Of a stretch of 64,000 bases of DNA, positions 6,531-45,622 are shown piece by piece; within the stretch, counting starts at the first letter, position 1; every line of letters begins with the position of its first letter. The notes below the pieces were generated by a model. It was not told the DNA's origin, ran no database searches, and saw only the letters and a program-made list of their open reading frames with translations. This DNA comes from Acidobacteriaceae bacterium (GTDB lineage: Bacteria; Acidobacteriota; Terriglobia; Terriglobales; Acidobacteriaceae): NCBI GenBank assembly GCA_021323655.1, contig JAJPKO010000032.1, forward strand, positions 1 through 64,000, in the 5' to 3' direction. Both the position numbers and the translations under genes were made by a program.

Positions 6531-6593
6531 TTTTTGCACCTGTCTTTTTGAAATCTAAATTGTCACGACTGAAGAATGCAGAGGGTGAGGGAG

Positions 6594-6629
6594 GACCCAG
6601 ACGATCGTTCGCGTGCATCGCCCTGGGTC
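6594..6629. other. Intercistronic hairpin between receptor 1 and sulfatase
   Basis: Stem GACCCAG (6594-6600) with CTGGGTC (6623-6629), extended inside by CGAT/ATCG. No T-run follows on the minus strand, so it is more likely an mRNA processing or stability element than a terminator. Confidence 0.45.
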
Positions 6630-6650
6630 TTTCCCTTTCCCAACTGCGCA

Positions 6651-9600: not shown

Positions 9601-9947
9601 ACCACCTGCTCCACCTTCCCAACTGCCAGCCTGATGTTGATGGTGCTGACCGCACCGGTTTCAACTACGATGCCCTTCTGCTCCTGTGCTTCGTAGCCAT
9701 CTCGCTCAACCTTCAGCGAGTAATGCCCCGGCAGCAGCAAAGGAAAGGCATAATAGCCTTCGCTGTTGGAAGTTTCTTTTCTGATGTCGCCTGTTTCGAG
9801 GCGTGTAAGTGTAAGGCCCGCGCCTGAGACTGCCGAACCGCTCGTGTCCAGCACTTGCCCGGAAACCTGAGAACTCTGCGCATTCACACGCACAGCAGCT
9901 GCCAGCGTAAACAGCGCTATTGTCCAAACGAAAATTCGCCTGTTCAT
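6651..9947 (-). CDS. Oar-like TonB-dependent receptor 1
   Basis: 1098-residue outer-membrane receptor. A signal peptide (MNRRIFVWTIALFTLAAAVRVNAQ) is followed by a carboxypeptidase-regulatory-like Ig domain (about 25-110: SGQVLDTSGSAVSGAGLTL), a plug-like region (about 120-260) and a long beta-barrel ending in Phe (LALRFTF). This architecture is the Oar group abundant in Acidobacteria and thought to import glycan fragments. The start at 9947 is chosen because GAGGGGGT lies eight bases upstream and the signal peptide begins there; a longer frame to 9995 would run into a terminator-like hairpin. It lies upstream of the sulfatase on the same strand. Confidence 0.92.
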   Translation of the reverse strand: MNRRIFVWTIALFTLAAAVRVNAQSSQVSGQVLDTSGSAVSGAGLTLTRLETGDIRKETSNSEGYYAFPLLLPGHYSLKVERDGYEAQEQKGIVVETGAVSTINIRLAVGKVEQVVNVDASVPLLQSASAAVGQVVENQTINNMPLLDRRSSQLQRLNGFVVGNGTGSNATFATAGGRGNNANYLIDGGSAQNLLLGVAILTFDPPIESVQEFNVAISNYAAELGRTGGAVIQMTTKSGTNRFHGSAYEYFRNDALQAVPYFASKNPELRYNLFGASLGGPIRKDRTQFFFNYEGRRTTQTTTKILNVPTQAEVTGDFSALSTPVIDPNTGQQAQYNGRLNVLPPSELDPVGTKLASFYPAPNVAGASANASNFIANDPAVTVVDAYVARVDHVINESNRIFGRLLAQTDHTKTASVFPTPGTDNYGTLVHDYFYNVSGNWYHNFSPTVINQLVGTYSRRQYLYISAGANTTLASEIGLGGTNGNFFPTVTLSGLEQLGNTQQERLQTPVISNQYADNLSFERGAHQFKAGVELRTSSNTDQYKPSAGGIFAFNNIGTSTNTAAGSLANLLLGRVASASLQETETLLTKAYSWGAYFQDDWHVTPRLTLNLGIRYDVDSPRYEAHNRQNSFDPTAINPVSGTPGVVTFSGVNGVSKYANNWDYHNIGPRAGFAWTARPRTVIRGGGAILYPGEYDQATPIVAYSGFAKSISLSSPNAGAGTPAFLLKNNATDGTGKATYPASSDLTAGFGAVPVGSKVVLAPQFFQRRRVTGYIYQASLDIQQQLSNSVVFDIGYLGTFGHHLPAVNAENINQVAPDKAALLPTTKNTQTLRPFPQFGNVSILAADVGQSGYNGVNFGIQKRYESGLQFQVNYTWSKFRDNQVSRNELAAYPGTDSFTDYYHPKDRWGLSGNDVRNRIIGNVLYELPIGPGKWVQPGNRWVNVAAAGWTVGAIAEVHSGTALSPIDATNNTGTYSDGVRPNLVGNPNDLSHSRPRVQKVAQWFDTSAFAQNPAYTFGNAPRTFGRGPGLATADASLLKDFRFAEATTLQFRAEALNVLNHANLANPNTSFGDSAFGRITGLQAGNQSRILQLALRFTF

Positions 9948-11025: not shown

Positions 11026-11102
11026 AGGCGCGTAGCTCAGTTGGTTAGAGCGCTACCTTGACACGGTAGAGGTCAGCGGTTCGAATCCGCTCGTGCCTAC
11101 CA
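11026..11102 (+). tRNA. tRNA-Val (anticodon GAC)
   Basis: A full cloverleaf can be drawn: acceptor AGGCGCG with CGTGCCT (one G-U pair), D-arm GCTC/GAGC, anticodon stem CTACC/GGTAG around TTGACAC giving anticodon GAC, T-arm AGCGG/CCGCT around TTCGAAT, discriminator A and encoded CCA. It sits alone on the plus strand between a minus-strand membrane gene and the GH127 gene. Confidence 0.95.
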
Positions 11103-11386
11103 TATCTTCAAACACTTACAGCATCCCTTACGTGGCTGAAGTCCCGAATCATATTTGGGATGAGAACACGCGATTATACAAGCTGGTGGCGGACCCCGGT
11201 CTGGACCAGGAAGCGCTGCAATCGGTGATAAGAAAAGGGCTGGAGCTCGCAGTCGAGCAGGTTCAACAGCAGGTTGCCTTCAGTAAGCGGCAGGCCTGCG
11301 GGCTCCTCACTTGTTCGCCGCGAAGTTATCCCTTCACGTCATCCAGCACAGGCCACGCGGTAACTCTCAGCTTGGCCGCAGCATAG
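11093..11386 (+). other. Open frame reading out of the tRNA, probably not a gene
   Basis: A 97-codon frame begins with GTG inside the tRNA 3-prime end and overlaps the last 60 bases of the GH127 gene. Codons from about 11130 to 11290 read like ordinary protein (for example DPGLDQEALQSVIRKGLELA), but there is no independent start or ribosome binding site. It may be a remnant of a gene lost next to the tRNA, or chance. Confidence 0.2.
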
Positions 11387-13362
11387 GGAACAAGCGTGAT
11401 CTGCTTTTCCGGCTGTGTGCTTGTGACGGGGCTTTCCGGCACAGGATTCGCCACATTGTCCACACTCATCCACGACGGGAGCTGCCGGGCGCTGACCTGG
11501 AGCTTCACCGGCGCGCCTTCTTTTGTGAACGGGGCCTGTCCCATGCGTGCCTCGGCTACGGAGACATGCTCAGCGGCGCTTTCCGGCTGAACGGCGAGCG
11601 CGTAGTTCCATTCCGTGGTGGGGTAGACCTGCCAGTCGGCGGTGAGTCCGCGATTGCGAAGCTTGAGCCAGTCTTCGCCGATGCTATAGGAGAAGACCAG
11701 CGGGCCGCGCTCCAGGCTAATGGAGTTGTTGTATCCGCGCGAGGCCCGAGGTACGAGCGAAAAAGCGATCTCCACTTTGTCACCTTTGTTCCACGAGCGC
11801 TCGATGCGGGCGAAGCTGCCCGGTTGTGGTGCGGCGTCCAGCTCACGGCCATTCACCTTCACGCTCGCCTTCTCTGCCCACGCGGGAATGCGCAGCAGCA
11901 ACGGAAAATCCAACGGCGATGCGGGATTTACGGTGAGCCGCACGGTTCCACGGAAGGGATACTCTGTTTCTTCCTGAACATGCACAGGCGTGCTGCGAAT
12001 GACTGTGCGCACTTCGCACGGAGCATAGGCGGCGGCAACGAGGCCATCGTCTGCCGAAAGCATGAAGAGGCTGGCGGTGAATTTGGGCCACCCCTGCCCG
12101 AAGTTTGCGGTGCAGCAGCCGAAGTTGGGATCAAGACCGAAGAGGTTGGATTCCGGGCCGTCGGTGGTCCACGGCGCTCTTTGGAGACTTACAGTCACCT
12201 GATTGGGCTGCTGGTTGTACTGGTGCGCCCACATGTCGTCGGTGAAGGCGCCCGGCAGCGCGTTGAAGGCGATCTTCTCGAGGCGATCTCCGAGCGAGGC
12301 GTCTCCGGTGATGGCGAGCGACTGCTCAAGCGAGAACATGGCCTCGACCACGGTGCAGAGCTCAGTGCCCTGCGAGGGATTGCGCCCGGCGAGGTGCTCG
12401 TCGGCAGAGAAGATTCCATTAGGCAGGCCGTGATAGCGGTCGAGCTCTTCCAGCATATGGAAGATGGCGCGGCGGTCCGTCTGGCTTTGCGTCAGTAGCG
12501 CGCGTACCGGTGACATCTTCAGCGCCATCGCGACATTGACGCCGTGCGTCTGCATGGCGCTGTCCGTGAGCGGAGAGTTGGGTGAAAGCCCGATGGCCTC
12601 AGGCGTAATTCGCTTTGTGAACTGGAAATTGGCAAACTCGGCCTGCCAGTCGAAGCCCTGCTGTTGCAGCAGACGGAAGAGGTCGAGCAGCTTTGTGTCT
12701 CCAGTGCGGTTGTAGAGCCAGATGACGGAAAGGGCCTCATCATGCCAGCGGTATTTTCCCCAGTCGCGGAGCGGGCGTGAAGGCAGCTCTGCAAGCTGAT
12801 GCGCAAAATACTTTGAGAGCACCGGGACGACGCGTGGATCGTTCGTCGCTTCGTGATACTGCGTCAGCACCTTGGTCATGACCATACGCGGCCACCAGTC
12901 GTCGTTTGACTTCGGGCCGATCATGCCGTCGGACGCAGTGTTTTCCAGCGTCCAGTCGAGGAACTTCTGCGCGATCGCCTTAAGGCGCGCATCGTCAAGC
13001 TGATAGGCAAGCGGAACAAGGCCGTCGAGATAGTAAGGGCCTCGCTCCCAGGATTCGCCCTTTCCGCCGAGCCATCCGCTGTCCGGACCTACGTCAGCCC
13101 ATGTTTCTCCCAAATGTCCGGCCAGGCCGTTTGCCTGAATGGTAAGCTGGCCGCGCAGCCAACCTGTGGGTCGGATAGAGCCCAGAGGCAGCATGGTAAA
13201 CGCGCTTTCTGCCAGAGGCGCGCGGTTCCTGACCGGAGCAGACGGCGTATATGCCGGCGTGTCTGTGTGCGAGAAAGCAAAGGCGTTCCGAGAGACAGAG
13301 GCGACACCTGCTGCTCCAAGAAGGGCGAGAAAACGGCGGCGGGAGAAGTCAGAAGAACACAT
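11326..13362 (-). CDS. GH127-type beta-L-arabinofuranosidase (DUF1680)
   Basis: 678-residue secreted glycoside hydrolase with a Tat signal (SRRRFLALLGAAGVA). The (alpha/alpha)6 barrel spans about 50-460, followed by beta-sandwich domains. The GH127 zinc/nucleophile cluster is present: E334 and C336 in GTELCTVVEA, and C416-C417 in GCCTANFGQGW, matching Glu338, Cys340, Cys417 and Cys418 of HypBA1, where Cys417 is the nucleophile. The likely reaction is release of beta-linked L-arabinofuranose, though relatives (GH146 and others) vary. It follows receptor 2 on the same strand and has its own hairpin plus a copy of the locus motif 46 bp upstream. No good ribosome binding site is visible at 13362. 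Confidence 0.9.
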   Translation of the reverse strand: MCSSDFSRRRFLALLGAAGVASVSRNAFAFSHTDTPAYTPSAPVRNRAPLAESAFTMLPLGSIRPTGWLRGQLTIQANGLAGHLGETWADVGPDSGWLGGKGESWERGPYYLDGLVPLAYQLDDARLKAIAQKFLDWTLENTASDGMIGPKSNDDWWPRMVMTKVLTQYHEATNDPRVVPVLSKYFAHQLAELPSRPLRDWGKYRWHDEALSVIWLYNRTGDTKLLDLFRLLQQQGFDWQAEFANFQFTKRITPEAIGLSPNSPLTDSAMQTHGVNVAMALKMSPVRALLTQSQTDRRAIFHMLEELDRYHGLPNGIFSADEHLAGRNPSQGTELCTVVEAMFSLEQSLAITGDASLGDRLEKIAFNALPGAFTDDMWAHQYNQQPNQVTVSLQRAPWTTDGPESNLFGLDPNFGCCTANFGQGWPKFTASLFMLSADDGLVAAAYAPCEVRTVIRSTPVHVQEETEYPFRGTVRLTVNPASPLDFPLLLRIPAWAEKASVKVNGRELDAAPQPGSFARIERSWNKGDKVEIAFSLVPRASRGYNNSISLERGPLVFSYSIGEDWLKLRNRGLTADWQVYPTTEWNYALAVQPESAAEHVSVAEARMGQAPFTKEGAPVKLQVSARQLPSWMSVDNVANPVPESPVTSTQPEKQITLVPYAAAKLRVTAWPVLDDVKG

Positions 13363-13400
13363 AGTCGGGGCCGATTCTTATCTTAATAAGTTGGTTCCAG

Positions 13401-13432
13401 CCGCCGCATAGTCCGAATGGTCTATGCGGCGG
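13401..13432. promoter_or_regulatory. Hairpin holding the core of the shared locus element
   Basis: CCGCCGCATAG (13401-13411) pairs perfectly with CTATGCGGCGG (13422-13432). Bases 13408-13423 match 12 of 14 fixed positions of the ATAGTA-N2-AATGGACT core found upstream of receptor 2 and the glycosidase. It lies 46-62 bp before the GH127 start, so it may be both an operator and an mRNA hairpin. Confidence 0.4.
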
Positions 13433-13462
13433 TAGAAGGGTCTGTTGAATATTCCGCAGTCG

Positions 13463-13505
13463 GTCATCCTGACGAGCAAAGGACGCCCAAGCTCTTCAGA
13501 ATGAC
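13463..13505. repeat. REP-like inverted repeat
   Basis: GTCATCCTGA and TCAGAATGAC form a 9/10 stem around a 23-nt loop, just after the receptor 2 stop. The GTCATCCTGA arm recurs at 43071, suggesting a dispersed palindromic repeat family. Confidence 0.5.
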
Positions 13506-13514
13506 GGGAATGTG

Positions 13515-16500
13515 TCAGAACTCGATTCTCGCGCCGAGCTGGCCCTGGCGCGGAATCTGCGTGCTTGTAGATGTGCCGAAGGCCGAACCGCTGGCAGCAT
13601 CGGAGTTCACGCCGTTCAGGTTCACGCGATTGAACAGGTTAAAGAAGTCCACGCGCAGATCGAGCTTCACTTTCTCTGTAATGTTCGTAAGCTTGCGGAA
13701 TGTCGCATCCACCTGAGCAAAACCCGGATTGCGGAACTGATTGATGCGCTCTGTTCCCTCCTGTCCTAATGCCGGGAAGGAGAACGGGCCGCAGTTATCA
13801 ATGTTCGTGCCAGAGCAGCGCGGAAAGACGCCGTGAATATAGCTGCGGCGGCTGTGGGAGATATGGTACGACGAGACATTCGGATAATCTCCGTTTGAGC
13901 CGTCGGCATTGAAGTCGCCAGAGTCCGGCAGATAGTAAAGATTGCCGGCTGCATCCTTCGCCACATCGAGAGGAGCACTGCTAAAGACGCTGAAGGGTTC
14001 ACCCGACTGCAAGGCCGTCACAGAAGATATTTCCCATCCGGAAGCCACTCTGCCAAGAAGGCCATGCCCATTGTGCAGAGATGGAAGCTGATAGCTCCAG
14101 CCGAGCGAGAAGCGGTTGGGCACGTCCCATGCCGAGGGACCGTAGAACCTTTCCAGCGAATACTCAATGGGATAGTTTGCCGAGTTGTCCTTCGATACGG
14201 AGCGCGTGTAAGAGGCAGTCACAAAGCCCCTCTGCGCAAAGCGCCCTTTGAGCGCGAGGATCAGCCCGGAGTAGTTTGACCACGGCCCATTGAATGTATA
14301 GTTGATGGCGCCAAAGCTGGAGTTGAGCCTGGTCTGCGTGCCTACGCAGGTGGCCTGCTGCCCGTTGGGCGGAGTAACAGGAGTGCAGGAGAGATGCTGC
14401 AACAGGTCGCCTTCGTAGAGATTGACGTCGCCGCCAAACGCATTGCTGAAGGCATTGCCGCCGCCATATTGCAGGTCGCCGGAGTGCTGCCCCACGTACC
14501 GGATGCCAGCAACCATGTTGTTTGTAAGCTGGCGCTCCACGCCGATGGACCAGGTTTCTGTATGGGGCGATTTAAGATTGCCATCCACGCCGCCTACGTT
14601 GATCTGCTGGCCAGGAATGCCGCCTTTGGCATCGAGCGGCGTGCCCTGAAAGGCTGGGTATGGAAAGCCGAAGGGATAGGTGTTGGACGTGCCGTAACCA
14701 AAGATGGGCGGCGCGGTGGAGCCGTTGTTATAGAAGGTGGGCAGCACAAAGCCCGGAGGATTGCCCTTGAGGTTGTTCTCTGCGTTGCCCAGGGTGACCC
14801 AGTCGCGATAAACGCCGAAGCCCCCGCGGAAGACCCACTTGCCGCTGCCTGTCGGGTCCCACGCAAATCCAGCGCGTGGGCTGAAGATCCAGTTCATGTC
14901 CTGGTTGTAGACATGGCCCTGCTGGCGGTTGTAACCGTTCGCGACTTTTTGTGCGAAGGTCGAGCCAGCACCGAGGTGGAAATTCGCGAGGGGCGTTCCG
15001 GCAGTGGGATAAGGATTGCCGTAGTTGTCATAACGCAGGCCGTAGTTCAGCGTGAGCTTGTGAGTAACGCGCCACGTGTCCTGCGCAAAAATGCCGAAGG
15101 TGCTCTGCGCATACTCATACTGGCCGGGCATGGGTTTCCCGGTCACAGGATTGTAGGAGAGGCTGGTCTCGGAATATGGCTTGTCATTGATCAGGTCAAT
15201 CATGCTGTTGTACTGGAAGTTGGGCTGCGCGTAGGCAGGCGCAAAGAGGGCGAGGTCGTCGCCGTGCCAGCCTTCATAGCCCACGCTGATGGCATGCTCT
15301 CCCTGAATATGTGTGAGCACATCGCGCCAGTGGTAGTTGTGCTCTGCATATTGCGAGTCGGCAAAGCCTGCGCCCCAGCCAACGCCGAGATTGTTAACAT
15401 TCACCACGGGCACAGAGAAGAGTCCCTTTGGCGCGTAAGTGGATTGCAGATAGTTGTAGCCGAAGTATGCCTGGTTCAGGGTGTTGGCGGAGAAGGTGTG
15501 CGTCTCGCTGCCCTGAACAGCCAGGACCGAGGACAGGCTGTAAGTATTGAATGCCGGGCGGACCGCCGGACCGCCAGCCTTACTGGTATCGCGAAAGATG
15601 GTGCCGTAGATGCGGTCCTTGTTGAAGTACTTGTCTATGCGGACGTTGTACTGCTTGGCGTTTTCATAACTGGATGAGTTGAAGACACCGTTATCGAAAA
15701 CGGGCAGAGAGCACGGCACGTTGTCTGTGCTGGGAGTGCCGCATCCGGTGTTGTTGGCCAGGTTCTGCGGGCCGAAGGCGTCCTGCGCGGTAGCTGCGAC
15801 TCCGGTCGTTGTAGCGCCGCTGGGCGGATACTTGGCCATCAACTGGACTTCCGGTGAGTTGGGCCGCACCTGCTGGGCAAAGGAAACAAAGGCCGGGTCT
15901 TCATAGGTCAGCACGCTGTTCCCGTTTGATGTGAGCGACAGATACGGCTCAATCGAGAAGAAGAAAAAGAACTGCTTCTTCGGGATAACAGGGCCGCCGA
16001 TGCCAAAAGACATATTGGTTGTGTGGAATGGCTGGATTTTTACGCCAGCTGGAAAGAACTCTCCCTTGGCATTCAGCCCCTGATAGGTGTAGTAGATGCT
16101 GCCGAAGCCGTGATACTGGTCCGTACCGGAGCGGGTGGTCATCACCGTCTGCATCGAGCTGGTCTTGTTGTAGTCCACCGTGTAGGTGTTGGTCTGCACG
16201 CTCATTTCAGAGAGTGCATCGGCGTTGGGCACGAGCGTCATCACGCCGGGGTTCACGTCAATGTTGATGTCCAGCCCGTCGAGGATGTACTGGTTGCCGT
16301 TGTCGCCGCGACCGTTTGCGCTATAGTCGGCGTTCTCGGTAAAGAAATTGTTGTATCCGGCAGCGCCAAGCCCGGTGACACCTGGCGTCAGCGTGATGAG
16401 TGAAGTAGGATTGCGTGCAGCTAGCGGAAGCGACTGGATGGCTTGCGTGTCAATCGTCAACTGATTGCGGCTGTCCGAGGTATCAAGCAATGGCGCCTGC

Positions 16501-16853
16501 GCTGTAACGGAAACCGTGGAGGCAACTTCGCCCACGGCGAGCGTCAGTGAGACTTCACGGTTCTCGCCCGTTTCCAGGGTGAAGGCGACCTTCGATGTAG
16601 TGAAGCCGGGAGATGTGGCGGAGATTTCGTAGTGTCCCGGAGCGATGCTCACAAAACGATACGCCCCGGAGTCATCTGTGAGCTTGGTTGCAATCACCTG
16701 CGTGTCCACGTTGACCAGTGTGACCGTGGCTTTGGGAACGACGGCCCCTTTGGCATCAAGAACATTGCCCTGGACGCTGGATGAGAATTGCGCAAAGCAT
16801 TGCACCCCAGTGAGAAAAAAACACAACGCTAACAGACCTGAATATCTACGCAT
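13515..16853 (-). CDS. Oar-like TonB-dependent receptor 2
   Basis: 1112-residue outer-membrane receptor. A signal peptide (start MRRYSGLLALCFFLTGVQCF) precedes a carboxypeptidase-regulatory-like domain (about 25-110, GNVLDAKGAVVPKATVTLV), a plug region with DSRNQLTIDTQAIQSLPLAA, and a very long beta-barrel ending LGARIEF. The start at 16853 has AGGAGA ten bases upstream; an upstream frame to 17018 would cross the promoter element. It lies between two secreted glycosidases and shares a 44-bp promoter element with the upstream one (17031-19433), so it is the most likely importer for the glycan they release. Confidence 0.93.
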   Translation of the reverse strand: MRRYSGLLALCFFLTGVQCFAQFSSSVQGNVLDAKGAVVPKATVTLVNVDTQVIATKLTDDSGAYRFVSIAPGHYEISATSPGFTTSKVAFTLETGENREVSLTLAVGEVASTVSVTAQAPLLDTSDSRNQLTIDTQAIQSLPLAARNPTSLITLTPGVTGLGAAGYNNFFTENADYSANGRGDNGNQYILDGLDINIDVNPGVMTLVPNADALSEMSVQTNTYTVDYNKTSSMQTVMTTRSGTDQYHGFGSIYYTYQGLNAKGEFFPAGVKIQPFHTTNMSFGIGGPVIPKKQFFFFFSIEPYLSLTSNGNSVLTYEDPAFVSFAQQVRPNSPEVQLMAKYPPSGATTTGVAATAQDAFGPQNLANNTGCGTPSTDNVPCSLPVFDNGVFNSSSYENAKQYNVRIDKYFNKDRIYGTIFRDTSKAGGPAVRPAFNTYSLSSVLAVQGSETHTFSANTLNQAYFGYNYLQSTYAPKGLFSVPVVNVNNLGVGWGAGFADSQYAEHNYHWRDVLTHIQGEHAISVGYEGWHGDDLALFAPAYAQPNFQYNSMIDLINDKPYSETSLSYNPVTGKPMPGQYEYAQSTFGIFAQDTWRVTHKLTLNYGLRYDNYGNPYPTAGTPLANFHLGAGSTFAQKVANGYNRQQGHVYNQDMNWIFSPRAGFAWDPTGSGKWVFRGGFGVYRDWVTLGNAENNLKGNPPGFVLPTFYNNGSTAPPIFGYGTSNTYPFGFPYPAFQGTPLDAKGGIPGQQINVGGVDGNLKSPHTETWSIGVERQLTNNMVAGIRYVGQHSGDLQYGGGNAFSNAFGGDVNLYEGDLLQHLSCTPVTPPNGQQATCVGTQTRLNSSFGAINYTFNGPWSNYSGLILALKGRFAQRGFVTASYTRSVSKDNSANYPIEYSLERFYGPSAWDVPNRFSLGWSYQLPSLHNGHGLLGRVASGWEISSVTALQSGEPFSVFSSAPLDVAKDAAGNLYYLPDSGDFNADGSNGDYPNVSSYHISHSRRSYIHGVFPRCSGTNIDNCGPFSFPALGQEGTERINQFRNPGFAQVDATFRKLTNITEKVKLDLRVDFFNLFNRVNLNGVNSDAASGSAFGTSTSTQIPRQGQLGARIEF

Positions 16854-16960
16854 GATCACTGTCTCCTGAAAAAATGGCAGTAGAGCGCCTGGAAGAGGAG
16901 GAGCTTTCGTGCTCTCCGCCCTGAATTCAGCGAGGGTAACGGTTGCGGTATAGTGTTTGC

Positions 16961-17004
16961 ATGAACCAGTCCAACCCCTAAGAAATAGTACAAATGGACT
17001 GTCC
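16961..17004 (-). promoter_or_regulatory. Shared 44-bp locus element upstream of receptor 2
   Basis: Identical at 28 of 44 positions to 19506-19549, with no gap. The fixed positions cluster in two blocks: ATG-N2-CCAG-N-C-N2-ACC, then (after 8 free bases) ATAGTA-N2-AATGGACTG-N-CC. The arms CAGTCCA (16967-16973) and TGGACTG (16995-17001) form an inverted pair here. It sits 108 bp before the receptor start. It is probably a binding site of the adjacent response regulator; this is inference. Confidence 0.6.
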
Positions 17005-17030
17005 AGGCGAAGCTGCACCAGGTCAGGAGC

Positions 17031-19433
17031 TCACACTCCGGACAATCTCAACCTGTATCGTGAAAAATTCTCCGTTTGAAAATGCCAGCGGCCGGGTTGA
17101 TGCTGGGTTTCCACAGCCTGACCGCTGCTCAGGTCCATAAGAGAAGCCAGCTTTACACTTTCCGGCAATTCCAACTCAGTGTGCAGCGTGCGGCTGTCAG
17201 CGAAGGTATAGCGCAGCGTGATCCATTGCTGCGCATAAGGCAGGCGTTCGATTCCATACTGCTTGCCAGCACCTGCGAGCATCGGGCTGAAGCCGGGAGC
17301 GAGAATGAGTTCTCCTGCCTTTTCTGTTTCGCGAAGGCCAATCAGGTTGCGGATGATGTGCGCGGGCATGACGGCACCCCAGCCATAGACTTCGCCGCCG
17401 AAGGCCCCATGCGCGCCCCAGATTTCGCAACTGACGCCCGGCCAGCCAAGCCGCGGGCCTTTCGCGCTGGGATGCGGTACGCGGCGGTCCATGCTGCGGT
17501 AGATGCGTTCGCAGATGTTTTCGACGGTTTTTGAGACAAGCTCGCCGTCTCCGCAAGCCCACGCTGATTCGAGGTAGGGCAGAACAAAAGAAGACCAGTC
17601 GAGAGAGTAATCGGCCGAAGATTCAGGAATGCGGGCCTGTGCCAGCATCTCGTCATACATTTTGTGCAGGGTGGAGAGGAGCTTCTTCTTCTGCTCGTCC
17701 GTCGCGATGCCGCAGAATGCAGGCGCGGCCTGCGATGGATCGCGGTCGGGAATATTGACCAGCTTCATCGAACGGGCGTCAAAGTCGTGGAACCAGTCGC
17801 CTTCCCACAGCTGCTGCGTTTTCTCGGCGAAGTCTTTCTGAATGCGCTGCCACTCGGCGATGCTGGCATGGTCAGGAACCAGCTCTGCGAAGCGCGCGAG
17901 GATGCCGGCGGCCTGGGACGTCGCAGCCTGCAGTTCCACCAGCCGCAGGAAGTCCACCAGCTCGCCTCCGGTGGGCTGCTGTATCTGGAAACGCTTGGAG
18001 GCATCCATACCGGTTTCCCAACTGCATTTACCAACGACGTAGCCGCCTGAATCGGTGCGGTGCCTGAGCGTCCAGCGCACAAACGCAGCCATGCGTGGAT
18101 ATAACTGGCGCAGCCATGCCAGATCGCGCGTGCGGTTGTAGATGGACTCCGCGCAGAAGAACGGGAAGCACCAGGAGATGGCGGTGCCGCACTCAGAGCC
18201 ATCGGTTGCAACCATGTTCATCACGCCGTCTTCGCGCATGCAGGGAATGTTGTCCTCAATCGCGTCGAGAAACTGGCCGGCGAAGACGTCTTTCGCCATT
18301 GCAGGATTGGCGTAGCTCAAGGCCCACATGTCAATCGAAGTTTCGGCAAGCACATTGCGCGGCGCCTGTATCTGCATGGCGTCCCACGGATGCTTGTAGA
18401 CACCGATGGGCCGCCGCACCATGGTGCGCAGTGTTTCAAAATCATAGACCCAGCCGTGCTGCCAGTGCTTCGGCCAGTCTCCGATGAGACGAGGGGCGCC
18501 GCCCCAGAAGACCGCGTCTTCGTGGAGCTTCTGTGCCATCACGGTCTTTGCTTCAGACAATGAACTTTGGGCATGCTTCAGCACGGTGGGCAGATTGGCT
18601 GCGCGCGCCATCAGGACCACAAATTCCTTTTGCCCGTGCGGAGCGAGAGACAAGTCATAGCGGACCCCGCCATGGAGCGGGTTCGTATCATAGGCGAGCT
18701 TTTCTCCGCGTTTTGCGCTGGAGCTCAGCCATGTTTTCCGGTCATCTGCCTTCGTCGAAAAGAAGTGCTCGGAAGGCTGCGCGTTTGCTGTGACCGCAAA
18801 TACGGTTCCCGCAGCAAAGGAGTGCGTCCAGAGCGCGTTTGTGTCCTTGTCAAACTCGCCGGCAATGCCATCGCCGCCCCACCACTGGCTGCCTCCAAGC
18901 TGATAGGTGTGCAGTGCTAGTGCGCCAACGGATTTAGCGCTGCCGGATGAGTTGGTGAGCAGGACGTGCACTGCCAGGGCATCTTCATTCACGAGAAAGA
19001 AGCTGCTCTCAATGGCAACACTATCCTGTTCAAAGTGGTAGCGGAGCAGATTTTTCGTATGGTGTGGGGCGGTGAGCTGGTCAGGGCTGAAGTCCTCCGG
19101 CCCGGTAAAGATGCGGTCACCGATCCTGAAGCCAAGTGCAAGCTCCGCTACATAGATGCCGTTGCGATGGTAGTCAAAGTAACCGCCGGGGCCAGCCGGG
19201 TAGTAGAGACCGAATCCAATCCCGGGCAGCGAGCGAAGGACCCCGCTCTGGTGCATGTCCCATGTGTGCCACGGGTTGTCGAGATAGCCGAAAGGCGTGT
19301 AGTCGCTTTGGGGAAAGCCCGCCTTCTGTGTGCCCGCGACGTCGGGCGCACTGATACCGGCAAAGGACGGTGGCATTCTCAGCGCGGCGGAAGCGGCGGC
19401 AAGCAAAGAGACAAATTCGCGGCGGTTCAGCAT
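17031..19433 (-). CDS. Secreted (alpha/alpha)6-barrel glycosidase, GH63/trehalase-like
   Basis: 800-residue exported protein beginning MLNRREFVSLLAAASAAL, a Tat-like signal, with GAGGAG upstream of the ATG at 19433. An N-terminal beta-rich domain (about 30-290) precedes a helical barrel. The motif WETGMDAS (about 470) and WGAHGAFGGEVYGWGAV (about 670) recall the WESGMDNS and C-terminal motifs of clan GH-G enzymes (GH63, GH37) and MGH1-type domains. The exact family and bond cleaved are uncertain. It is divergent from the sugar-binding protein and sensor operon and carries the shared 44-bp element 73 bp before its start, linking it to receptor 2. Confidence 0.8.
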   Translation of the reverse strand: MLNRREFVSLLAAASAALRMPPSFAGISAPDVAGTQKAGFPQSDYTPFGYLDNPWHTWDMHQSGVLRSLPGIGFGLYYPAGPGGYFDYHRNGIYVAELALGFRIGDRIFTGPEDFSPDQLTAPHHTKNLLRYHFEQDSVAIESSFFLVNEDALAVHVLLTNSSGSAKSVGALALHTYQLGGSQWWGGDGIAGEFDKDTNALWTHSFAAGTVFAVTANAQPSEHFFSTKADDRKTWLSSSAKRGEKLAYDTNPLHGGVRYDLSLAPHGQKEFVVLMARAANLPTVLKHAQSSLSEAKTVMAQKLHEDAVFWGGAPRLIGDWPKHWQHGWVYDFETLRTMVRRPIGVYKHPWDAMQIQAPRNVLAETSIDMWALSYANPAMAKDVFAGQFLDAIEDNIPCMREDGVMNMVATDGSECGTAISWCFPFFCAESIYNRTRDLAWLRQLYPRMAAFVRWTLRHRTDSGGYVVGKCSWETGMDASKRFQIQQPTGGELVDFLRLVELQAATSQAAGILARFAELVPDHASIAEWQRIQKDFAEKTQQLWEGDWFHDFDARSMKLVNIPDRDPSQAAPAFCGIATDEQKKKLLSTLHKMYDEMLAQARIPESSADYSLDWSSFVLPYLESAWACGDGELVSKTVENICERIYRSMDRRVPHPSAKGPRLGWPGVSCEIWGAHGAFGGEVYGWGAVMPAHIIRNLIGLRETEKAGELILAPGFSPMLAGAGKQYGIERLPYAQQWITLRYTFADSRTLHTELELPESVKLASLMDLSSGQAVETQHQPGRWHFQTENFSRYRLRLSGV

Positions 19434-19505
19434 TCGGCAGGCTCCTCTAAATGGCGGGAAAGAAAATCTTTGCACAATAATAGAGAAATGGAAGGTGTAA
19501 ACAGC

Positions 19506-19549
19506 ATGGGCCAGCCATACCAACGGCTCATAGTATGAATGGACTGGCC
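19506..19549 (-). promoter_or_regulatory. Shared 44-bp locus element between glycosidase and sensor operon
   Basis: Second copy of the bipartite element at 16961-17004; the 20-bp core ATAGTA-N2-AATGGACTG-N-CC matches at 17 positions out of 20. It lies in the divergent space, 73 bp before the glycosidase start and about 30 bp before the sugar-binding-protein start, so one bound regulator could control both directions. Confidence 0.6.
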
Positions 19550-19581
19550 ATCAGTGGTGAGTGCAGTGCATTCTGAATGAT

Positions 19582-20535
19582 ATGCCATGGTGCTGTGCGC
19601 GAAAGATCTTCGCTGCCAATCTTGTTCTGCTTGCGATGATGGGGTGCCGCTCCGGTCCTCCGGTGGTCGCAGTGATTCCGCGTACAACCGGCATGTCTTT
19701 GTGGGAGCCGGAGCGCGCGGGCGCAGATGCCGCCGCGAATGCACATGGCATGAAGATTTACTGGAATGCTCCTACGCGCGAAGACGATGTGCAGGGCCAG
19801 ATTGCTCTGGTCGAGAAAATCATTGATGAGAAATATGCGGGACTTGTTCTTGCGCCAGACCAGTCGCTGGCGTTGATGACGCCCGTGCGCCGCGCTGTTT
19901 CCAAAGGCATCCCTACAGTTGTGATTGGCTCTGCGTTGCCGCTGAATCCGGGTGGCAGGCTTTCTTACATCGTCAGCGATGATGAGCAGGCGGGGCAGAT
20001 GGCCGCCGCGCGCGTTGGGGCGATCCTGAACGGCAACGGTACGGTCGCCATCATCGGCATCAATCCTGATATCGCCGGAGTGCTCGAGCGCGTGCGTTCG
20101 TTTGAGGCAACAATGGCAGCGCAGTTCCCGCAGATCCACATTGTTGAAAAGCGAATGGGATCATTCAACGTTCCCTATGAGCAGCAGATTACGGAAGAAG
20201 TACTGATGGGCCATTCGGACCTGGGCGCGGTCCTTGCTGTTACGGCAGACGCAACGCGGGGGGCCTACTCGGCGCTGAGCGAGCTGCACCGTACTGGAAG
20301 CGTAAAGCTGGTTGGTTGTGATCAGGACCTGCTCGCCCCGCTGGTGAGCGGCGAAATGGATTCCGTTATTGCTGAAGACACCTATGAGATGGGCCACCGT
20401 GCCGTGGAGTGGATTGCACTGGAGCGGCAGGGGAAAACAGCGCCCGCATTCCAGAAGGTTGCACCGCGCCTGGTCACGAAAGAAAACCTGAACTCGCCAG
20501 ACATTCGGCGCATCCTGGGGCTGGTGGCGCAATGA
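19582..20535 (+). CDS. Periplasmic sugar-binding lipoprotein (Peripla_BP_4)
   Basis: 317-residue binding protein of the ribose/galactose-binding type. A short hydrophobic leader ends LLAMMGC, an imperfect lipobox, so it is probably a lipoprotein. The body has the two-lobe pattern: VVAVIPRTTGMSLWEPERAGADAAA at the start of lobe 1, GLVLAPDQSLALMTPVRRAVSKGIPTVVIGS in its second half, and VKLVGCDQD with GHRAVEWI in lobe 2. No ABC permease or ATPase is adjacent. Instead the stop overlaps the kinase start (ATGA), so this protein most likely hands a sugar signal to the kinase. ATG 19582 is preferred because the signal sequence starts there; GTG 19561 is possible. Neither has a clear ribosome binding site. 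Confidence 0.85.
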   Translation: MPWCCARKIFAANLVLLAMMGCRSGPPVVAVIPRTTGMSLWEPERAGADAAANAHGMKIYWNAPTREDDVQGQIALVEKIIDEKYAGLVLAPDQSLALMTPVRRAVSKGIPTVVIGSALPLNPGGRLSYIVSDDEQAGQMAAARVGAILNGNGTVAIIGINPDIAGVLERVRSFEATMAAQFPQIHIVEKRMGSFNVPYEQQITEEVLMGHSDLGAVLAVTADATRGAYSALSELHRTGSVKLVGCDQDLLAPLVSGEMDSVIAEDTYEMGHRAVEWIALERQGKTAPAFQKVAPRLVTKENLNSPDIRRILGLVAQ

Positions 20536-22655
20536 AGGCGCGCCTTCAAAGGTGGAAATGGCCTGCTCTGGCCCTGGCCGCGGCGTGTGCCGTGGCTGCA
20601 TTCCTTTTTCTGCTATACCTGCGCAGCCCGAAGCATGGGCTCCCTTACCATGACTCTTTTGCGCAGGGAGGGGCCGACGAGTGGGAAGCATTCGGCGGAA
20701 CGTGGGCCGTCTATGACGGTGGAATGCGCAACGACTCTGACGAGCGCGGCGCAAAGCTGATGACGGGCTCGCCCTACTGGAAGAATTATCTGGTCGAGGC
20801 CGACGTAATGCTGCTGGGCGAGGATGGCGATGCCGGGCTCATCATCCGCGCAAGCGACGAAGAGCAGGGCGTGGACTCCTACAGCGGCTATTACGCAGGG
20901 CTGCGCACGCGTGACAACATGCTGACGCTGGGCCGCGCCAGCCATGGGTGGCTGGAATACCGCAATGTCTCCATGCCGGAGAGCGTGCGGGCCTTCCAGT
21001 GGTATCACCTGAAGTTGCTGGCGTATGGATGCGACATCGTTGCTTCGGCAACCTTTCCTCTGAACAGCGGACATACGACCACTGCTTCGATGACGGACAA
21101 GAACTGCCTCGTATCCGGACGCATCGGCCTGCGCTCTTACTCAGCCGGGGGCTTCTGGAGAAATATTCAGGCGCGAGTAGCAACGGAGAATGATCTGCGC
21201 GCCATGCTCGGCAACACAAGGACGCAAACAGGCAGCAGCGAGCAGGTGGCGGGAAACGGCATCACCATCTTTGGCTCCGGCTCGTTGCCATCGCACCTGA
21301 ATGCGCAGGTACGGCCTGCTGCGAATGTGGAACCGGTGAGCAGTCTTCGCCTGGTATCAAGTTCGCAGCCCATCACAGCAACTATTCGCGGGGTCGTTTC
21401 GCTTACAGCGCCGCTCTATGTGCAGGACTCCACAGGAGGTATCTCGGTCCACACCAGTACAAGCCCGCCGCTCAAGGTCGGAGATGAAATTCAGGCAACA
21501 GGAACAGTGTCGCCCGGGGCCTTCCACTCGACGCTCGAGGATGCGAAGGTGCAACTGCTATGGGCAAGAACACCAGTGCAGCCTGTGGCGGTGACGGCAT
21601 CGCAGGCAGCCACCGGTGCGTTCGCGGCGATGTTCATTGAAGTAGAAGGCCATTTGCGCAGCAAAGAACGCGAGGCCGAAAACAATCTTGCGCTGGGCCT
21701 GGAAGATGGGCAGCAGTCCTTTCGCGCCGTGGTCAATGCCGGGCGAGGCGACCTGCTGTTCAACAAGCTGAAACCAGGAAGCCTGCTGCGCTTGCGCGGG
21801 GTGTGCGTGGTGGACTCAGAGTATACGCACAATCTGACACCATTCGTTCTGCTGCTGCGTTCGACCGATGATATAGAAGTGGTAGCGGGGCCCCCGTGGT
21901 GGAATGCGCGGCACGTGATTGCCGCAGGGTTCGTGCTTCTATTGCTGCTGCTGATCGGGCACTTCATCTATAGCCGCATTGAGCAGTGGAGGCTGCGTGC
22001 CATTCTGGAAGAGCGCGAGATGCTGGCGCATGAGATGCACGACACGCTGGCGCAGAGCTTTGCCGGACTCGGCTTTCAGCTTCAGGCCATCCGCAACCGC
22101 ATGCCTGAGGACATGCCTGCTCTCCACAAGCAGATTGAGCTGGCCTGTGATCTGGTACGGCACAGCCATGAGGAAGCACGCCGTGACATCATGATGCTGC
22201 GCACCGAGTCCTTTGAGCAGATGGAACTGACGCGGATGCTGGAACAATGCGCGAAGAAGATGCTGGATGGCGGAAACGTTGAAATTGCGGTGTCGCAGAC
22301 AGGAGACCTGCGCCCACTTCCTCTGCGCATCAATGACACTCTCTTTCGCATCGGGCAGGAAGCGCTGGCCAACGCTGTGCGCCATGCCACGCCAAAACGC
22401 ATCTCCATTATGACGGCCTACACAAAAGATTCCGTGCAGATGGTGATTGAAGATGATGGCAGCGGATACGATGCGGGCAGCGAAAAGAAAGGCTTTGGTG
22501 TGCGCGGAATGAAGCGGCGCGCAGCGGCCATCTCTGCTGCGATTGAGATTGCTACTTCTCCAAACCTGGGCACGCGGGTACAGGTCACGGCACCGTTGCC
22601 GGCAGGTATGCACCTCAAATACTGGGCGGGAAAGAAGAGGAAGTCCGATTCATGA
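20532..22655 (+). CDS. Sensor histidine kinase with periplasmic lectin-like and OB-like domains
   Basis: 707-residue membrane kinase. Helix 1 is at about 10-30. A periplasmic concanavalin-A-like domain follows (about 36-220: WEAFGGTWAVYDGG, YWKNYLVEADVML, DAGLIIRAS), then an OB-fold-like domain (about 275-445: IRGVVSLTAPLYVQDSTGGISV, DEIQATGTV). Helix 2 is at about 461-481. The cytoplasmic part is a HisKA_3/NarX-type kinase with H503 in HEMHDTLAQ, an N-box with EALANAVRHA, and DDGSGYD plus GFGVRGMKRRA for ATP binding. The start at 20532 overlaps the binding-protein stop and its own stop overlaps the regulator start, so the three are coupled. The lectin-like domain suggests direct contact with a glycan or with the binding protein. 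Confidence 0.9.
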   Translation: MKARLQRWKWPALALAAACAVAAFLFLLYLRSPKHGLPYHDSFAQGGADEWEAFGGTWAVYDGGMRNDSDERGAKLMTGSPYWKNYLVEADVMLLGEDGDAGLIIRASDEEQGVDSYSGYYAGLRTRDNMLTLGRASHGWLEYRNVSMPESVRAFQWYHLKLLAYGCDIVASATFPLNSGHTTTASMTDKNCLVSGRIGLRSYSAGGFWRNIQARVATENDLRAMLGNTRTQTGSSEQVAGNGITIFGSGSLPSHLNAQVRPAANVEPVSSLRLVSSSQPITATIRGVVSLTAPLYVQDSTGGISVHTSTSPPLKVGDEIQATGTVSPGAFHSTLEDAKVQLLWARTPVQPVAVTASQAATGAFAAMFIEVEGHLRSKEREAENNLALGLEDGQQSFRAVVNAGRGDLLFNKLKPGSLLRLRGVCVVDSEYTHNLTPFVLLLRSTDDIEVVAGPPWWNARHVIAAGFVLLLLLLIGHFIYSRIEQWRLRAILEEREMLAHEMHDTLAQSFAGLGFQLQAIRNRMPEDMPALHKQIELACDLVRHSHEEARRDIMMLRTESFEQMELTRMLEQCAKKMLDGGNVEIAVSQTGDLRPLPLRINDTLFRIGQEALANAVRHATPKRISIMTAYTKDSVQMVIEDDGSGYDAGSEKKGFGVRGMKRRAAAISAAIEIATSPNLGTRVQVTAPLPAGMHLKYWAGKKRKSDS

Positions 22656-23293
22656 ACAAGCACGACAGCAAACCTGTTCGCATCCTGATAGTGGATGACC
22701 ATCCCGTAGTGCAGGCCGGCCTTGCAAGCATGCTGACCACGCACAAAGGCATTGAGGTAGTCGGCTCCGCCTCAAGCGGTGAAGAAGCGGTGGCAATGGT
22801 GCAGCAGGAAATGCCCGATGTCATTCTGCTTGATCTGCGCATGCCTGGAATGAGCGGCATAGATACGCTTCGGGCGCTTAAAGAGATCAAGGCAACCGCG
22901 CGGGCCATTATTCTTACAAGCTTTGAGACAGATGAGAATATTTATCGGGCGATTCAGGCCGGGGCGCAGGGATACCTGCTGAAAGACACCTCGCAGAACC
23001 AGATGCTCGAGGCGATTGCGACAGTCCATGCAGGCAAGCGGTATATTCCGCGGCAGATTGCCGCGCGGCTGGCAGAAAGGATGCTGCGGTCGGACCTGAC
23101 TTCGCGTGAGCTTGAAATCCTTGAGATGCTGGCCAAAGGTCTGACGAACAAGCAGATTGGTCATGCACTCGAGATCAGCGAAAACACAGTGCGCAACCAC
23201 GTCAACAGCATTATGGAAAAGCTGGAGGTCTCAGACCGCACGGAGGCTGTTGCCGTTGCCATTCAGCAGGGAATCATTCAGATTTCAGGGTGA
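22652..23293 (+). CDS. NarL/FixJ-type response regulator
   Basis: 213-residue regulator. The receiver domain (8-125) has the acidic pair D15-D16, phospho-acceptor D61 (LLDLRMPG), T89 and K111 (YLLKD). The LuxR-type helix-turn-helix (about 148-205) contains LTSRELEILEMLAKGLTNKQIGHAL and SENTVRNHVNSIMEKL. It overlaps the kinase by four bases and is its evident partner. A likely target is the 44-bp element between the glycosidase and this operon; this follows from position only. Confidence 0.95.
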   Translation: MNKHDSKPVRILIVDDHPVVQAGLASMLTTHKGIEVVGSASSGEEAVAMVQQEMPDVILLDLRMPGMSGIDTLRALKEIKATARAIILTSFETDENIYRAIQAGAQGYLLKDTSQNQMLEAIATVHAGKRYIPRQIAARLAERMLRSDLTSRELEILEMLAKGLTNKQIGHALEISENTVRNHVNSIMEKLEVSDRTEAVAVAIQQGIIQISG

Positions 23294-23297
23294 TGAG

Positions 23298-24755
23298 ATG
23301 ATGCTGAAATTCAGCTGCCCTTTGGCCCTGGGCGCGATTCTTGCTCTTTCATGTGCAATGGCATTCGCGCAGGTGCCCGACCCGCAATTTTCTGCAGCGG
23401 TGCAACAGTTGCAGCAAAGGAACTTTGCGCAGGCAGTCGGGTTGGCGCAGAACGCATTGGCGAAGACGCCAAAGGACTGCCGTTGGTTGACTCTCCGAGG
23501 CATGGCGCTGAATGGATCAGGCAGGCAGCAGGAGGCGCTTGCATCGTTTCAACATGCTGCAGAGTATTGTCCGAAATATCTGCCCGCGCTGGAAGGTATG
23601 GCGCAGATCCAGTACGCACAGCGCTCGCCGCAGGCTATTGCCACTTTGGAACATATTCTTGCGTTGCGGCCAGGAGATGAAACCACGCACGCGATGCTCG
23701 CGGCCCTCTACTGGCAGAAGAATGACTGCGAGCACGCTCTGGAACATTTTGCCGAGGGCGGCCAGATCGTCGAGAACGACCCGACTGCACAATCTGAGTA
23801 CGGCCTCTGTCTGCTGGAGACGGGAAAAGCACAGCAGGCAGAAGAGCTGTTTCAGCGTGCCGTGCAGCGCGGCGACTCTTCCCTTGCCCGCATGAGGTTT
23901 GCATACGCGGCATGGAAAAACAAAGACAATGCGCGTGCGCTCGATGCGCTGTCTCCGCTGGTGCGGACAGGTCCCCCAAATGCGATGGCGCTGCGGCTTG
24001 CGGCCCAGATTGCCGAGGACAAGGGAGACACGGCGGACGCGGTAAAGTGGCTGCGTGAAGCGATTCTGGCTGAGCCGAAAAATCCTGACGCCTACCTCAC
24101 CTTCTCAAATATTGCATTTGCGCACAGCTCCTATCAGGTAGGAATAGACATGCTGAACGCCGGAATCACGCAGCTGCCCAGTGATGCGCGGCTCTACCTT
24201 GCGCGTGGAGTGCTGCTGGTGCCGCTGGGAGAATACGAGAAGGCCATTGCCGACTTTGAACGTGCCCACAAGCTGGCTCCGGAGCTGTCACTGGCCGAAG
24301 ACGCCATCGGGATGATGAGCAGCGAAAAGCACAACACGGCCGCTGCGCTGGAGATGTTTCGCAGCCAGTCGCAGCAGCATCCGCATGATGCATTGCTGCA
24401 GTATCTCTATGCCGAAGCGCTTTCCCAGGGAAATGAAGGCGCTCAGCAGACCACGGAGGCCATCGCCGCGCTCAAGCGCGCAGTTGCCATTGAGCCGGAT
24501 TACCGCCCCGCGCATGACCTGTTGAGCGTGCTCTATCTGCGCGCGAATGATTTGCCATCTGCGGTGCGCCACGCTGAGATCGCGCTGAAGCTGGACCCGA
24601 ACGATGACACGGCGGTGTATCAGGAAATTCTTGCCTACCGGCGTATGGGAGCGAAAGAACGGGTGGAACCGCTGGTCGCGCGATTGAAGCAGATCAAAGC
24701 TGAGCAGCAATCCAGAAGGGTGAAGGCACTTCTGGTGGAAGCGCCTTCACCATAG
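23298..24755 (+). CDS. Secreted TPR-repeat protein
   Basis: 485-residue protein with a signal peptide (MMLKFSCPLALGAILALSCAMAFAQ) and about ten tetratricopeptide repeats covering nearly all of the mature chain, for example AVGLAQNALAKTPKDCRWLTLRGMA early and RPAHDLLSVLYLRANDLPSA late. TPR arrays hold protein complexes together; here it should act in the periplasm or at the outer membrane. It begins four bases after the response-regulator stop, so it is the fourth gene of the sensor operon and may serve in signal relay or envelope assembly. No enzymatic motif is seen. It converges with the AhpD-like gene 11 bp downstream. Confidence 0.85.
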   Translation: MMLKFSCPLALGAILALSCAMAFAQVPDPQFSAAVQQLQQRNFAQAVGLAQNALAKTPKDCRWLTLRGMALNGSGRQQEALASFQHAAEYCPKYLPALEGMAQIQYAQRSPQAIATLEHILALRPGDETTHAMLAALYWQKNDCEHALEHFAEGGQIVENDPTAQSEYGLCLLETGKAQQAEELFQRAVQRGDSSLARMRFAYAAWKNKDNARALDALSPLVRTGPPNAMALRLAAQIAEDKGDTADAVKWLREAILAEPKNPDAYLTFSNIAFAHSSYQVGIDMLNAGITQLPSDARLYLARGVLLVPLGEYEKAIADFERAHKLAPELSLAEDAIGMMSSEKHNTAAALEMFRSQSQQHPHDALLQYLYAEALSQGNEGAQQTTEAIAALKRAVAIEPDYRPAHDLLSVLYLRANDLPSAVRHAEIALKLDPNDDTAVYQEILAYRRMGAKERVEPLVARLKQIKAEQQSRRVKALLVEAPSP

Positions 24756-45542: not shown

Positions 45543-45622
45543 TTCCGCTCCTGTATTGAAGCCGTTGCCGCAACGGCCCTATACTCAGAGCCAGTCGTCA
45601 GCCTCACGGCTTGGCGATCGCA

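Follow-up and report, generated by a model that had tools for sequence, protein, structure and literature searches.

The first 64,000 nucleotides of contig JAJPKO010000032.1 of an Acidobacteriaceae bacterium (GenBank assembly GCA_021323655.1; this whole stretch is hereafter called the window) contain a cluster of genes that probably serves to sense and use a glycan. The members listed in an earlier sequence-only reading were all recovered at 11326-24755 from open reading frames and a Pfam profile scan of the window's proteins. Three genes on the minus strand, which encode a GH127-like secreted glycosidase (11326-13362), an Oar-type TonB-dependent receptor that we term Oar2 (13515-16853; PF25183 and CarboxypepD_reg), and a GH63/MGH1-like six-hairpin secreted enzyme, here GH63L (17031-19433), diverge from three genes on the plus strand, which encode a periplasmic sugar-binding protein (19582-20535), a sensor histidine kinase (20532-22655), and a NarL-type response regulator with receiver (REC) and GerE (PF00196) domains (22652-23293). 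As had been read from the letters, the binding protein, kinase, and regulator genes overlap by ATGA, exactly so at both junctions (20532-20535 and 22652-22655). A gene for an exported TPR protein (Pfam scan) follows on the plus strand, ending at 24755; its start, at 23298 or 23301, lies 4 or 7 nt past the regulator stop codon and does not overlap the regulator gene.

The GH127-like enzyme has both the catalytic and the middle domain over cutoff (PF07944 at 43.6 bits, with a cutoff of 24.9, and PF20736 at 77.5 bits), and its E-x-C and CC columns, which we take to hold the catalytic residues of GH127, align with those of solved GH127 members; it is distant from these, with partial matches only. 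GH63L exceeds the cutoff for PF22422 (45.1 bits; cutoff, 27), but its match to YgjK is weak and spans only 36 residues, and its predicted structure is poor (pLDDT, 59.9; pTM, 0.47). The binding protein scores 125 bits for PF13407 (Peripla_BP_4; cutoff, 35.1), and its best sequence matches among structures are sugar-binding proteins. It is a likely lipoprotein, with a lipobox (LLAMMGC) that is weak in the window and was identified by visual inspection.

The predicted structure of the kinase's input part (pLDDT, 87.9; pTM, 0.80) runs from a transmembrane helix through a beta-sandwich, a low-confidence linker (231-259), and an OB-like region to a second transmembrane helix; in the protein, the HisKA_3 and HATPase domains come next. 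A lectin-like domain had been proposed for this kinase, and the model bears that out: upon realignment of Foldseek's top 1000, the closest structural match of the modelled beta-sandwich is CBM66 of the Bacillus subtilis levanase (Z score, 22.4; root mean square deviation, 1.9; 158 residues; 18% identity), followed by the lectin domain of galactocerebrosidase (Z score, 21.1) and thrombospondin (18.8). CBM66 is absent from the best 50 Foldseek matches listed. A joint profile of the kinase module and related enzyme modules matches CBM66 at 5e-19. Relatives of the module also occur on secreted enzymes. It is fused to GH127-like proteins in three Bacteroidota records (L157, L158, and L170; 40 to 42% identical to the window's GH127), and among seven other module-bearing proteins scanned, four have GH43, two have GH2 (one of them also AbfB), and one (L161) has no Pfam match. 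Two genomes of the family (L180 and L183) carry it on an arabinofuranosidase-B-type enzyme, which in L180 lies beside a kinase with the lectin-like module alone. CBM66 is tabulated as fructoside binding (PMC10992016); a furanoside-type ligand is therefore our leading guess, and the target leans weakly toward a glycan with furanoside ends.

Conservation of this gene order in relatives, on which the sequence-only reading had staked its proposal, was found at two distances. The six-gene core (GH127 through regulator) recurs in the same order and on the same strands in the sole other genome of the genus compared (G001, hereafter the congener), at identities of 79% (GH127), 90% (Oar2), 72% (GH63L), 81% (binding protein), 79% (kinase), and 90% (regulator); it is flanked there by other genes, SufS/SufU-like together with an integrase-like fragment (named by eye). 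Farther out, the kinase sensor is matched at 1e-20 in 43 of 200 family genomes sampled, counting partial matches. A scan of named genomes with one peptide pattern, from which the best 80 loci were kept, yielded full-length matches (lectin-like module plus OB-like region) exclusively from Acidobacteria, including Edaphobacter, Granulicella, Acidipila, Silvibacterium, Bryocella, "Candidatus Sulfotelmatobacter," and others. After loci with an identical kinase stretch were dropped, 75 full-length kinase loci remained. The binding protein gene lies directly upstream of the kinase gene in all 75, and a regulator gene lies at most 3.2 kb downstream in 69, of which 58 share the kinase's strand and 11 do not. 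Seventy loci have an Oar gene no more than 8 kb away, and in 52 it is transcribed divergently from the sensor genes. A possible kinase start overlaps the binding protein stop codon (NTGA) in 37/40 loci, the exceptions being L057, L063, and L080. GH127 orthologs are present in 19 of the 75 loci and GH63L orthologs in 5. The triad of binding protein, kinase, and regulator, together with an Oar gene, is the constant part of the system, and the enzymes vary among loci. Two other GH127-like genes occur in the window's genome (G000:C1:74948-75730, L011; G000:C34:1705-2133, L010), and the kinase-sensor search reported no match near either.

Kinases of other architectures accompany these. A binding protein gene is present with all 75 kinases that have lectin-like and OB-like parts and with all 10 at distinct loci that have the OB-like region alone plus a separate, oppositely oriented lectin gene (7 by the window's binding protein as query and 3 more only by a query from a clade member), compared with 0/9 lectin-only and 0/2 tandem-OB kinases; in the OB-only set, L151 is cut before its kinase part, and L186 and L188 were omitted as lying on the same contigs as L155 and L152. 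We keep as an idea that the OB-like region could be where the binding protein docks on the kinase. The region itself scores 18.7 bits for PF01336, below the cutoff of 27, and has an E value of 0.012 for YgiW, with its strands present in the predicted model. OB relatives form part of 4/4 GGDEF-type proteins scanned; those at L189, L190, L192, and L196, in GGDEF or GGDEF/EAL proteins, suggest a shared OB-type sensory module. In nine records (L148, L149, L150, L152, L153, L154, L155, L185, and L187), the lectin-like module is encoded apart from the kinase: its gene has the reverse orientation and is flanked by those for the binding protein and the OB-only kinase, as if an inversion had removed this part from the kinase gene. 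Judging from these architectures, the sensor modules of the kinase recombine. A further locus of the window's own genome (L009; contig 8, 510-9046) combines a lectin-only kinase, a neighboring regulator, an Oar gene, and a GH92-like enzyme (by eye), has operator-like sites at 2756 and 2780, and looks like a version of the same system that lacks the binding protein.

The shared promoter element that had been proposed for the locus is an operator-like inverted repeat, present before GH127 (CATAGTCCGAATGGTCTATG; 13407-13426; 13.9 bits, with 8.8 bits for the congener copy), before Oar2 (AATAGTACAAATGGACTGTC; 16984-17003; 17.9 bits), and in the divergent promoter of GH63L and the binding protein (CATAGTATGAATGGACTGGC; 19529-19548; 8.1 bits, which is under our site threshold of 12 bits, with 10.4 bits in the congener). 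The motif was learned de novo on the regions upstream of 39 Oar genes in relatives, with the window and the congener left out, and takes the form of two heptamers separated by two bases (7-2-7), TAGTnCA-nn-TGnACTA, or ATAGTnCA-nn-TGnACTAT at greater length. By expectation maximization (EM), it scored 227.8, versus 105.6, 99.9, and 103.6 in three shuffled sets, for an unequal effort (60 iterations from a known seed on the real set; the best of 40 random seeds with 10 iterations each on the shuffled sets). In a second scan, of loci that differ in sequence and come from related organisms, 31/36 have a site of at least 12 bits at the start of the binding protein or Oar gene (30 column-permuted matrices: maximum of 2, mean of 0.57). 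GH127 promoters are informative here, since only those of Oar genes had been used to derive the motif: in the second scan, 7 of 9 GH127 starts have such a site (30 column-permuted matrices: maximum of 1, mean of 0.03). Of the 9 GH127 upstream regions scored earlier, at the refinement of the motif, 7 reach 12 bits and 8 reach 8.8 bits, and L051 has no site.

The local form of the repeat is scarce elsewhere. A pattern built from the window and congener sites (AGWCCATTYRKACYAT, with up to 1 mismatch) has 3 matches in the 4.59-Mb genome of the window, all in cassette promoters, and 4 in the congener, at the 3 corresponding promoters and 1 other place; the backwards control has 0 and 1, respectively. 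A pattern must match the sites from which it was built, and the evidence therefore lies in the absence of further matches. The additional congener match (1 mismatch) lies outside the cassette, at G001:C1:3168351-3168366. A hairpin before GH127 (arms, 13401-13414 and 13419-13432) was considered as a terminator and rejected, as a terminator scan found none; by eye, the congener retains the core of the repeat there and not the long stem. Elsewhere in the window, a 14.9-bit match to the operator motif (45524-45543) coincides with the start of a further gene for a TonB receptor on the minus strand (43146-45542), with a gene for a GH2-type enzyme nearby (47253-49886). At four loci whose regulator gene is oriented the other way (L069, L079, L127, and L132), the center of the repeat is a variant, roughly TAGTGCYGYAGCACTA by eye, suggesting that operator specificity may differ by clade.

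Across the kinase loci, the presence of the repeat tracks the kind of DNA-binding domain that the linked regulator carries. An operator site is present in 54 of 60 loci whose regulator has a recognizable GerE recognition helix, versus 1 of 10 scored as degenerate (Fisher's exact test, 7e-7); from this comparison L106 was dropped (contig end), 4 of the 75 loci yielded no regulator, and for some (L075 and L126) the regulator used lies kilobases away. The sole degenerate locus with a site, L060, owes that score to a slicing error, as the full translation shows an intact helix. Of the remaining nine, eight (L008, L058, L061, L068, L117, L120, L122, and L146; the ninth is L075) encode a regulator with a receiver domain, a GerE remnant, and a C-terminal helix-turn-helix (HTH) of the LacI type, located beside a paralogous pair of binding protein and kinase. 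PF00356 is over cutoff in all eight (56.7 to 62.2 bits; cutoff, 27; E values of 2e-15 to 4e-17). This clade includes Acidobacterium sp. S8, Granulicella sp. L46, Edaphobacter lichenicola M8US30, and others, as well as the congener (L061) and the window's own genome (L008, contig 56, regulator at 13205-14002). Matches to the LacI-type output at 1e-17 occur in at least 4/200 family genomes and at least 3/396 phylum genomes, in at least 5 distinct genomes (at most 22 and 11 candidates per genome, respectively, were scored), and all four family matches lie at kinase-sensor loci.

None of the eight LacI-type loci has the 7-2-7 repeat at the starts of its binding protein and Oar genes at the 12-bit threshold. 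Instead, words within 2 mismatches of TGGAAGCGCTTCCA or TGTAAGCGCTTACA occur upstream of the Oar or binding protein gene in 7/8 of them, versus 4/67 of the others (Fisher's exact test, 1.3e-6; the pattern was fixed after the HTH classes had been compared, a similar word having emerged de novo earlier). In L008, L058, L061, L117, and L146, these words stand in the divergent promoter as two or three copies, 20 to 98 bp apart; L120 and L122 have one copy near an Oar gene 6 to 7 kb away, and L068 has none. We put at about even odds the idea that the sensor family has swapped its output in this clade, a LacI headpiece and LacI-type operators, often paired, replacing the GerE helix and the 7-2-7 repeat. 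The periplasmic binding protein is a relative of the LacI sensor domain, and the result would in effect be a LacI-type regulator split across the membrane, with the binding protein as the sugar-binding half and the DNA-binding half under phosphorelay control. Together with their sister systems, which have the usual output, the LacI-output regulators amount to an operator-swap experiment set up by nature. No LacI-type output on a response regulator was found in the open-licence literature searched, among the papers listed, which include the available portion of PMC1183210.

We interpret the window's locus as a self-regulated glycan-use cassette with its own sensor and operator, a reading to which we assign a probability of about 0.75. 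A sugar that ends the target glycan or is released from it would be sensed by the binding protein and the CBM66-like/OB periplasmic part of the kinase, which would then phosphorylate the NarL-type regulator. The regulator, we infer, binds the 7-2-7 repeats before GH127, Oar2, and GH63L and the one in the divergent promoter of the sensor genes. In this way it would most likely activate the genes for the receptor and both secreted enzymes and adjust the expression of the operon to which it belongs. Because site type follows the HTH class of the regulator, which is the strongest in silico support that we have, the linked regulator probably reads the linked promoters, in the window as elsewhere.

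Several observations weigh against this interpretation. Given how few of its loci carry GH127 or GH63L orthologs, the sensor family is not bound to a single substrate, and the kinase sensor by itself has no match to CBM66 by sequence. The third site in the window ties for seventh place among the window's matches and depends mainly on its congener copy. When the family consensus (TAGTNCANNTGNACTA, at most 1 mismatch) is used, the Oar2 site is the sole match in the window's genome, where the backwards control is equally frequent (1 place), and in the congener the control is commoner (8 places versus 2); genome-wide scarcity therefore rests on the site-derived pattern, and the repeat in its family form is not intrinsically rare, the control for the consensus being no lower. 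Over all 75 loci, column-permuted matrices give 21 to 60 matches, versus 103 for the real one, with almost none of theirs at gene starts. Seventeen of the 75 loci have no 12-bit site at the binding protein or Oar start, namely, the 8 of the LacI-type clade and 9 others, including L053, which has relatives of Oar2, GH63L, and GH127. No sigma-70-like promoter was found by the operators, except for one weak match before GH63L.

The repeat might be bound by a regulator encoded elsewhere, with the linked NarL-type protein acting on other genes, in which case gene linkage and repeat would be two independent layers. The repeat does occur at loci whose regulator is on the opposite strand or several kilobases away, and words like the LacI-type operator turn up at a few loci (4/67) that have an intact NarL-type regulator. 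An unlinked regulator would leave it unexplained that the HTH class of the linked one predicts whether a site is present and that LacI-type regulators have the matching type of operator, and we regard this arrangement as unlikely. Loci L067 and L070, with no regulator detected and no site, do not discriminate between the two views.

Whether the cassette feeds the cell is a different matter, since it could sense or remodel a glycan for another purpose, such as its own exopolysaccharide or the surface glycan of a competitor or host. The Pfam scan recognized no sugar catabolic genes in the cassette, and both enzymes are secreted. Yet a receptor, secreted enzymes, and a sugar-binding sensor are the usual makeup of an uptake locus, and the enzymes differ between loci while the core of sensor and Oar stays, which makes a nonfeeding role improbable in our view. 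It is scarcely credible that the neighborhood has no function at all, its genes traveling as an island and its motif being inherited intergenic sequence: the flanks of the congener copy do differ, with the integrase-like fragment adjoining (by eye), but the motif is kept at loci whose kinases are only 31 to 60% identical, is carried by GH127 genes at other positions, and covaries with regulator type.

The limits of the self-regulated cassette can be drawn more narrowly than was first proposed. The sulfatase and receptor 1 (5079-9947), put forward as possible members, are rejected: neither was found in the 20-kb stretch around the congener's core, the operator motif scores -0.6 bits before receptor 1, and a tRNA-Val (11026-11102) separates the pair from the cassette. 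Sulfatase-like genes do occur at some kinase loci (L069, L072, and L079). The TPR gene, which had been counted as a member, has relatives in 29/75 kinase loci, often adjoining the Oar gene, but was not found in the same 20-kb stretch of the congener; it is probably the last gene of the sensor operon in the window and lies outside the conserved core.

Acidobacteria are abundant in soils, and the cassette bears on the ways in which they may recognize and take up specific glycans in the absence of SusC/D. If our interpretation is correct, the triad and its operator point to the Oar receptor and the secreted enzymes that are devoted to a single glycan, such that orphan receptors and enzymes could be grouped, and their ligands made testable, from sequence. 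Like a SusC/SusD-type polysaccharide utilization locus (PUL) of Bacteroidetes, the cassette unites an outer-membrane receptor, secreted enzymes, and a dedicated sensor-regulator, and in this respect the PUL-like logic first ascribed to it holds. Bacteroidetes PULs are regulated by hybrid two-component or extracytoplasmic function (ECF) sigma/anti-sigma systems; in the window's cassette, by contrast, the receptor is of the Oar type, and the binding protein, the kinase, and the NarL-type regulator are distinct proteins. A search for SusD (PF07980, SusD_RagB) gave no match in the whole genome of the window, with a positive control in Bacteroides ihuae.

Individual parts also have counterparts. 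The kinase module resembles CBM66 of the B. subtilis levanase in its predicted fold but belongs to a kinase sensor, not to an enzyme as an appendage, and the GH127-like protein shares catalytic and middle domains, E-x-C, and CC with GH127 beta-L-arabinofuranosidases while being distant from solved members. NarL operators have 7-2-7 geometry, and the window's regulator and repeat follow NarL/FixJ regulators in combining REC and GerE with an inverted repeat of two heptamers 2 bp apart; the half-site is different, and the output of the paralog clade is a LacI-type HTH. The split sensor that had been postulated, with its genes adjacent in the window and their linkage kept in relatives, is not new in kind. 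Solute-binding proteins work with sensor kinases in XylFII-LytS, TorT-TorS, and LuxP-LuxQ (PMC6321045) and in CuaDSR, whose three genes are adjacent (PMC10384115); unlike these, the window's sensor is linked to an Oar gene and secreted enzymes and has CBM66-like and OB-like input and NarL-type output. No glycan locus with a sensor of this kind, whether built around an Oar receptor or from an acidobacterium, was found in the open-licence literature searched, among the papers listed, including the available portion of PMC7074687. Each ingredient thus has a known relative, and three features did not appear among the open-licence papers listed: a CBM66-like kinase input accompanied by an Oar receptor, an operator shared across the family, and regulators that combine a LacI-type output with operators to match.

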